Part shown: piece by piece, positions 8,155 through 45,077 of the stretch
How positions within the stretch are numbered: the first letter of the stretch is position 1
Layout of the letters: each line of letters starts with the position of its first letter
Origin: Desulfurellaceae bacterium
GTDB lineage: Bacteria > Desulfobacterota > Binatia > Bin18
Reading direction: 5' to 3'
Assembly: GCA_021296095.1 (NCBI GenBank)
Contig: JAGWBB010000008.1
Location: 1-52,927 of the forward strand
Length of the DNA: 52,927 nt
Position numbers and translations under genes: made by a program
Notes under the pieces: generated by a model
The model's database searches: none
The model's input: the letters and a program-made list of their open reading frames with translations, nothing else
What the model was told of the DNA's origin: nothing

Positions 8155-8202
8155 ATGCGCCCCTCCTGACATGCCAATCTCGCCAATCCGGCAAGAGAGC
8201 CT

Positions 8203-8232
8203 CCAGCGACTGAATGACTGTTCAGTCGCTGG
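8203..8232. promoter_or_regulatory. perfect 12-bp palindrome, probable TetR-type operator
   Basis: CCAGCGACTGAA (8203-8214) is repeated in inverse as TTCAGTCGCTGG (8221-8232) with a 6-bp spacer. It lies 48 bp upstream of the CoA-transferase start at 8154. The central GACTGAA...TTCAGTC resembles operators bound by TetR-family repressors. There is no T-run, so it is not a terminator. Which regulator binds is unknown; the TetR gene at 17860-18450 is one candidate. Confidence 0.6.
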
Positions 8233-8317
8233 AAACCGAGCGGGATTGTACTCGGGAACGCCCGAACATGCAAGCAGACAGCCAGCCCCGGTCGGGGGTG
8301 TGGAACGGACGCTGGAC

Positions 8318-30656: not shown

Positions 30657-30710
30657 TTGGTCAGCCCGAAATTGGTCAGCCTGGACAAGGGCGGCTGCGC
30701 CCTTGTCCAG
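30657..30710. promoter_or_regulatory. direct repeat and 13-bp palindrome between divergent genes
   Basis: TTGGTCAGCC occurs twice, at 30657-30666 and 30672-30681. It is followed by a perfect inverted repeat: CTGGACAAGGGCG (30681-30693), GCTG loop, CGCCCTTGTCCAG (30698-30710). There is no T-run. It lies between the SMP-30 and SnoaL starts, a place for shared regulation; the binding factor is unknown. Confidence 0.6.
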
Positions 30711-43065: not shown

Positions 43066-43471
43066 TCATTTGACATGAGGTTGACCTCTTCCAGCCCGCG
43101 CCTCGGTGGAGAGGTCCTTCGTCAGATATTCTACCTCAGCTAACTCGCAGGCCACACGAATCCGGTATTCATACGGTCCGATCTGGCCGTCTGTGTCATA
43201 GATCACCACGGCGTTGTTCTTTGCCCGTGACATGCGCAAAGAACAACGCCTGCTGCACGCTGTCAAGGCTCGACCGCTTGTCAAGCCCGCCCTCATACAC
43301 TCGCTCCTCCGTCTCACAATCTACGACCACATAGGCAGAGCCCGTTGGGTAGTCGTAGACGTGACGAACCTCCCGCTGTCCGCCGACCTGGGTGCAAAAC
43401 GCATCATTCGCGTCTCTTTCGTTCGGGAACCCGGCCGCGAGCATCAGCACGAAAAACGGAGCAAGCAGCAT
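43066..43471 (-). pseudogene. secreted hypothetical protein, broken by a frameshift
   Basis: The first frame (43471 down to about 43230) encodes a signal peptide (APFFVLMLAAGFP) and a domain with VRHVYDYPTGSAYVVVDCET and SSLDSVQQALFFA, then runs into a stop at 43196. The continuing protein is read in a second frame from about 43233 down to a stop at 43066: AKNNAVVIYDTDGQIGPYEY and RIRVACELAEVEYLTKDLS. The join lies inside a perfect 15-bp palindrome (43210-43250), suggesting the break arose there. An intact version would be about 135 residues. Function unknown; the pair of conserved-looking segments suggests a once-functional exported protein. Confidence 0.75.
43210..43250. repeat. perfect 15-bp palindrome at a frameshift
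   Basis: GGCGTTGTTCTTTGC (43210-43224), 11-bp spacer, GCAAAGAACAACGCC (43236-43250). It lies exactly where the reading frame of the secreted-protein gene breaks. Both arms encode parts of the protein in their respective frames (ALFFA and AKNNA). Confidence 0.85.
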
Positions 43472-44273: not shown

Positions 44274-45077
44274 AACACGGAATGCCGGGCCGTGTCAACT
44301 GCACAACAGTACCAGCAACTCCAAGCCATGGTCGCCCGGGTCCAGGCCGTACAGTGGCCGGCTGACCTACGCCATGCACCACTCCCAGCTCATCGCCGGC
44401 GGGCTTCTACGGCCCAAACCCCACCCATCTGCAGGACGATTTGGAACTCGACATCGTAGGCATCAGTGCCTATGCCTATTTCCCACTCACGGATGCTGTG
44501 CCCACGACGGTCCTCAGCGTCGCCGCCCTCCAAGCGAGTTACGAGCAGATCTTTCAGGACTATCTCCTGCCGCTGGCCGCCCGCAATCCGGATCGGCCCC
44601 TTGTGTTTCTCGAATATGGCGCGATGGAGGCGGTTGCAGCGCCCTATGATCAGAGTGTTTCGTTCCTCCAACCCTATGTCTTTTCTGACGCGAACGGGAA
44701 CGGGAAAGACGACGGATGGGAAACCCAGGCCAATATGTACCAGGCCCTGCTCAACACCATGGCGCAGCACCCAGGCGTCTTAAATGGCGTCTTCTTCTGG
44801 GGGAATTGGCTAGAGCCTTTTACGTTAGGCTGTAGCCAAACCGTTCCGCTCTCGTCATGCCGGACGTGATCCGGCATCCAGCGGCGGGGGGCTCGGAGGC
44901 TGGATGCCTGCTTGCGCAGGAATGACAGGCAGCTACACAGGATCGTAATTTGCTCTAGCCAGCGATGCGATGTGGGACCAATATGGCTGGAAAGATGATC
45001 TTCGCTCTTACGGTATCCGGGGCAAGTTGGCCGAGGAGGTCGTGCGGTCGGCTTATGAGTCCTACAAGCAGCAGTAG
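44274..45077 (+). pseudogene. glycoside hydrolase remnant with several frameshifts
   Basis: Fragments of one protein appear in different frames: STAQQYQQLQAMVARVQAV (to about 44345), SGRLTYAMHHSQLIAGG (about 44350-44400), and then a 142-residue block from 44441 with ELDIVGISAYAYFPLTDAVP, VFLEYGAMEA and NGVFFWGNWLEPF. The C-terminus DQYGWKDDLRSYGIRGKLAE ends at a TAG (45075-45077). Motifs fit a TIM-barrel glycosidase such as a GH113-type mannanase, with EYG holding a catalytic Glu. A 73-bp palindromic element (44854-44926) interrupts it. The N-terminal part is absent. Certainly non-functional as read. Confidence 0.75.
44854..44926. repeat. 73-bp palindromic repeat element
   Basis: An element with GTCATGCC at one end (44854) and GGAATGAC at the other (ends 44926). 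It contains two hairpins: ATGCCGGA/TCCGGCAT (44857-44864 and 44870-44877) and CCTGC/GCAGG (44907-44911 and 44916-44920), enclosed by ATCCAG/CTGGAT. Such GTCATxCC...GGAATGAC palindromes are widespread dispersed repeats in proteobacterial genomes. It lies inside the glycosidase remnant, probably inserted after decay began or contributing to it. Confidence 0.75.

Follow-up and report, generated by a model that had tools for sequence, protein, structure and literature searches.

Probable inactivation of a bacterial gene by quasipalindrome correction, with the imperfect repeat still intact in a relative

Background

On the minus strand of a contig from an uncultured Desulfurellaceae bacterium (GTDB: Desulfobacterota, Binatia, Bin18; assembly GCA_021296095.1, contig JAGWBB010000008.1), a gene of an uncharacterised family changes its reading frame inside a perfect hairpin, which raises the question of whether this hairpin is the trace of the event that broke the gene or a signal through which the two frames are read as one protein. 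The window, that is, the whole stretch of 52,927 nucleotides that was analysed, belongs to a genome of 4.32 Mb in 185 contigs that is 96.9% complete.

A mutational route to such an arrangement has been described. In quasipalindrome mutagenesis of Escherichia coli, stalling is followed by fold-back and copying from the nascent strand, which leaves a more perfect repeat, and template-switch cases of this type include the E. coli thyA hotspot and lacZ reporters, rIIB of phage T4 and yeast CYC1 (PMC7202029). Template-switch multinucleotide changes have been described in coding genes of Saccharomyces cerevisiae (PMC8604942), and template switching between the arms of short inverted repeats has been reported for RNA genes (PMC8794818).

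Findings

The broken gene and its hairpin consist of the following elements:

43066–43471, minus strand: frameshifted gene of an uncharacterised family of about 120 amino acids, probably encoding an exported protein, with a predicted PD-(D/E)XK-like fold
43471–43196, minus strand: frame 1, the N-terminal part, an open reading frame of 91 amino acids, in frame with the family to ...VTGK and then running through foreign residues to a premature stop
43066–43212, minus strand: frame 2 (+1), the remainder of the family protein (AVVIYDTDG...), free of stops
43236–43250, minus strand: left (5') arm, the putative donor, GGCGTTGTTCTTTGC, equal to the in-frame family consensus Ala-Leu-Phe-Phe-Ala
43225–43235, minus strand: hairpin loop of 11 nt
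43210–43224, minus strand: right (3') arm, the putative recipient, GCAAAGAACAACGCC, whose departure from the family is exactly the one expected if the left arm was copied, and which contains the +1 shift
43213–43215, minus strand: three putatively new bases, reading AAC in coding orientation, in place of the two bases of a Pro or Ala codon that the in-frame relatives show

The two frames overlap at the hairpin and are joined in the homologues, whose alignment puts the switch inside the right arm, in agreement with the initial annotation. Beyond the Lys shared with the family, frame 1 reads EQRRGDL and a stop (eight foreign positions, counted from Glu). The protein is probably secreted or exported, judging from its hydrophobic N-terminus and that of the relative L016 (MKVFSVLFVLLLASPVLAQ). 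On the plus strand at 44290–44870 lies a protein-like stretch (...GFYGPNPTHLQDDLELDIVGISAYAYFPLTD...FFWGNWLEP) that seemingly runs across more than one frame, has no Pfam match and resembles a REP-type repeat at its end; it resembles part of a glycoside hydrolase in sequence and is possibly another decayed gene, adjoining the hairpin-broken one.

The inverted repeat spans 43210–43250. It had been described as a perfect 15-bp palindrome, and the 15-bp arms are indeed perfect; with its 11-nt loop, the structure is a hairpin and not a strict palindrome. No other perfect hairpin of the window with a loop length of 3–60 is as long (the runner-up has 13 bp), and when the window was resampled six times under a first-order Markov model, none exceeded 12 bp. 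A 400-kb sample of the same genome contains seven stems of at least 15 bp, mostly from two repeated palindromic families. Since stems of this size are not rare in the genome, the length alone is modest evidence, and it is the position that counts: the notable point is that the hairpin coincides with a frame break. Two other hairpins with 13-bp arms (8202–8233 and 30681–30710), looked up against the open reading frames, show no obvious frame break.

The two interspersed palindromic families, of types TAAAGAGGAAACGTGTCA and AAAGGCAATCGTGAT, are REP- or MITE-like, with arms of 13–18 bp and loops of 7–22 nt, and occur at the following places in the genome of the window:

L114: 10738–10793, 11498–11548 and 14440–14490
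L115: 4330–4382, 5523–5555 and 5987–6038
L120: 8175–8222

No exact copies of the hairpin arms were found elsewhere in the genome, and membership in these repeated palindromes was considered and rejected. An intrinsic terminator was likewise rejected, since GTGGTGAT, and not a T run, comes after the right arm on the coding strand.

A scan of a genome collection with the single sequence as query found nothing, and a scan with an alignment found 79 loci elsewhere that match the family. Among related genomes, clear matches came from three, one of the same genus (G001) and two of the same family (G010 and G012). Hosts include Candidatus Binatota, other metagenome-assembled genomes and many Rhodobacteraceae and SAR116; no relatives were found in viral contigs. 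Pfam, PHROGs, NCBIfam and PDB sequences gave no usable match, and the family hence has no database name. A structure model of L016, built with 41 sequences, is confident (pLDDT 89.8) and has the element order H-E-E-E-H-E-H-E, which may correspond to that of PD-(D/E)XK nucleases, whose core runs helix, three strands, helix, strand. The best structure matches on a second look were nuclease-fold proteins, namely a repair endonuclease/EndoMS, VC1899, AF1548 and Can2, with Z of 8–9.6 and weak Foldseek E-values. Invariant in the 41 relatives are D54, E63, G65, D67 and Q76-Q77, without a lysine two positions after E63, its usual place. Because of the weak E-values and the lack of a lysine at that place, the model lets us predict a protein that is nuclease-like only. 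In one Burkholderiales assembly, three contigs (L017, L018 and L019) carry copies that are identical across the compared stretch, which suggests a repeated or mobile gene.

All 76 loci that span both arms are in frame there (68 read automatically, 8 by eye); of the other three of the 79, two run off their contigs and L093 is truncated at Gly-Lys. In the window, the left arm reads Ala-Leu-Phe-Phe in frame, as it does in the family, so the presumed template arm is unchanged. At the right arm, where Thr-Gly-Lys-x-Pro (or Ala) stands in the family, the window is longer by one nucleotide; a three-base stretch in it, without counterpart in the relatives, corresponds exactly to the left arm read as reverse complement. 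All 15 arm bases pair, and identity with the left arm ends at the arm boundary, where the template would give GCCTGC and GCCGTG is observed.

The nearest relative by tree path is L016, from G010 (fork support 86). Its gene is intact and carries an imperfect version of the repeat, a 10-bp stem (GTTCTTTGCC/GGCAAAGAAC) with a one-nucleotide bulge and five more pairs; comparison with intact homologues had been proposed in the initial annotation, and it yields exactly such an in-frame, imperfect repeat. The nearest relatives are about 55–68% identical to the window gene, so that the ancestral bases at the site are reconstructed ones, and no counterparts of the neighbouring window genes were found in the flanks of the relatives, so that orthology within the family is taken from the tree alone. 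A Pseudophaeobacter homologue (L042: 3001–3300) has a perfect 11-bp stem over the same codons, in frame.

The same relatives bear on the alternative that the hairpin is a recoding element, at which the ribosome would shift frame and make a single full-length fused protein. Folded as RNA, the window hairpin is stable (-33.1 kcal/mol, z -4.6), and both frames remain constrained, which speaks for such an element; against this, every relative covering both arms is in a single frame, so the shift is not conserved, and the intact L016 folds about as stably (-29.7 kcal/mol) without any shift. The change needed is moreover +1 (or -2), while downstream hairpins usually promote -1, it lies inside the stem and not upstream of it, and the gene lacks an X XXY YYZ heptamer. 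Recoding, which the initial annotation had offered as its second reading, thus appears extremely improbable. The window shares with programmed ribosomal frameshift signals a stable stem at the frame change, and differs from them in having neither slippery heptamer nor conserved shift, and a direction that is wrong for a downstream stimulatory hairpin.

What remains at the site, a left arm like that of the family and a right arm as copying predicts, is what the first proposal of the initial annotation calls for, namely that template switching turned an imperfect repeat into a perfect one. We consider it probable that the gene was broken recently by quasipalindrome correction, a fold-back template switch. 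The starting point would have been an imperfect inverted repeat of about 9–10 bp, formed by the Phe-Phe-Ala and Gly-Lys-Glu codons, followed by an asymmetric interior loop or a bulge and, beyond it, by a short outer stem, as is seen in L016 and as we infer for the ancestor. The steps are given for synthesis of the coding-sense strand, which is an assumption, either strand being compatible with the data. The polymerase would have stalled in the right arm after GCAAAGAAC; the new 3' end would have folded back, and these nine nucleotides would have served as primer by pairing with GTTCTTTGC in the left arm. Copying the left arm outward would then have added AACGCC before the polymerase returned to its own template at GCC, with two presumed ancestral bases replaced by three. 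The product is the observed hairpin, perfect over 15 bp, and the observed +1 shift, after which foreign residues lead to a premature stop. An ancestor resembling L016 would have had arms that differed in length by one nucleotide, and equalising them by copying of the longer arm would necessarily have shifted the frame by +1.

Ordinary independent mutations, an insertion and one or two substitutions that perfected the repeat by chance, would formally give the same result, since the ancestral bases are themselves reconstructed, and decay is frequent in the family: in the same genus, the reading frame of L078 has shifted in a G-run where there is no hairpin. For the chance of such an outcome, an in-frame gene was modelled in which the site carried each of the four Pro codons in turn, so that the exact ancestor is a modelled one; a single two-to-three-base replacement among 25,792 along this gene (two with CCC) gives a stem of at least 15 bp. 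With one or two in 25,792 equivalent replacements yielding such a stem, and with the changes clustered and every one of them matching the other arm, independent mutation is a poor explanation and, in our estimate, very unlikely.

Constraint is visible on both sides of the break. In comparisons with seven relatives, pN is 0.23–0.33 and pS 0.69–0.85 before it, and pN is 0.22–0.33 and pS 0.58–0.95 after it, where the second half has also kept free of stops. Since both halves still show constraint, the break is either recent or a copying artefact of the same type that arose in vitro. In the tree, the window branch measures 0.87 and that of L016 0.13, lengths that are unsure as long branches on 133 columns; the longer window branch may hint at relaxed constraint.

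Template switching in library amplification or sequencing, or an error of assembly, would leave the gene in the organism intact, and unbroken constraint on both sides is what a whole real gene is expected to have. Imperfect hairpins can promote switching with any polymerase. The genome is an incomplete assembly in many contigs, and the named relatives are metagenome-assembled. On the other hand, an assembly consensus normally requires the change to be present in most reads, and the family is also broken or truncated in other genomes (the frameshift of L078, the truncations of L091 and L093), so that loss of the gene is common. We therefore regard an artefact as unlikely, and retain the recent quasipalindrome correction as the probable cause of the break. 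As to these other genes, the frameshift of L078 lies in a same-genus homologue (G001:C431, about 961–1277), and, of the two truncated members, L093 begins abruptly at Gly-Lys beside the site equivalent to the hairpin.

Discussion

The proposed event at this locus resembles the known quasipalindrome cases in that an imperfect repeat is perfected, the bases come from the other arm and the frame is altered (PMC7202029). It differs from them in having been inferred from relatives in a natural, uncultured bacterium and not observed as it arose; furthermore, the event restores the frame in the lacZ reporters, whereas here it breaks it (PMC7202029). With the cases from yeast coding genes (PMC8604942) and from RNA genes (PMC8794818) it shares the homogenisation of the arms of short inverted repeats, inferred by phylogeny; the yeast coding cases summarised in the former are amino-acid replacements, while the window gene has undergone a frame shift and truncation (PMC8604942). 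The expectation that the outcome would be unusual is thus only partly right, as the mechanism is a textbook type of bacterial mutation (PMC7202029). What the locus adds to this known mechanism is a new instance, one whose imperfect counterpart is plainly seen in a relative.

Whether the Phe-Phe-Ala...Gly-Lys-Glu codons of this family are a recurrent mutational hotspot, at which template switching repeatedly edits and switches off the gene, can be asked of the relatives as well. A stem of at least 9 bp at this stretch occurs in three of 65 distinct sequences, against 0.36 expected from synonymous codon resampling, a count that is a hint only, resting on three cases of which one, L024, uses other arms. 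We hold such a hotspot to be improbable.

On the reading that we prefer, quasipalindrome correction has here inactivated a gene in nature, in a clean case for which a relative retains the imperfect repeat in an intact gene. Most of what is known of such events comes from reporters and model organisms; the locus shows that donor arm, recipient arm and point of return can also be recovered in uncultured bacteria, by ordinary comparison of relatives. For annotators the caution is that a frame break coinciding with a perfect hairpin points to copying rather than to recoding.
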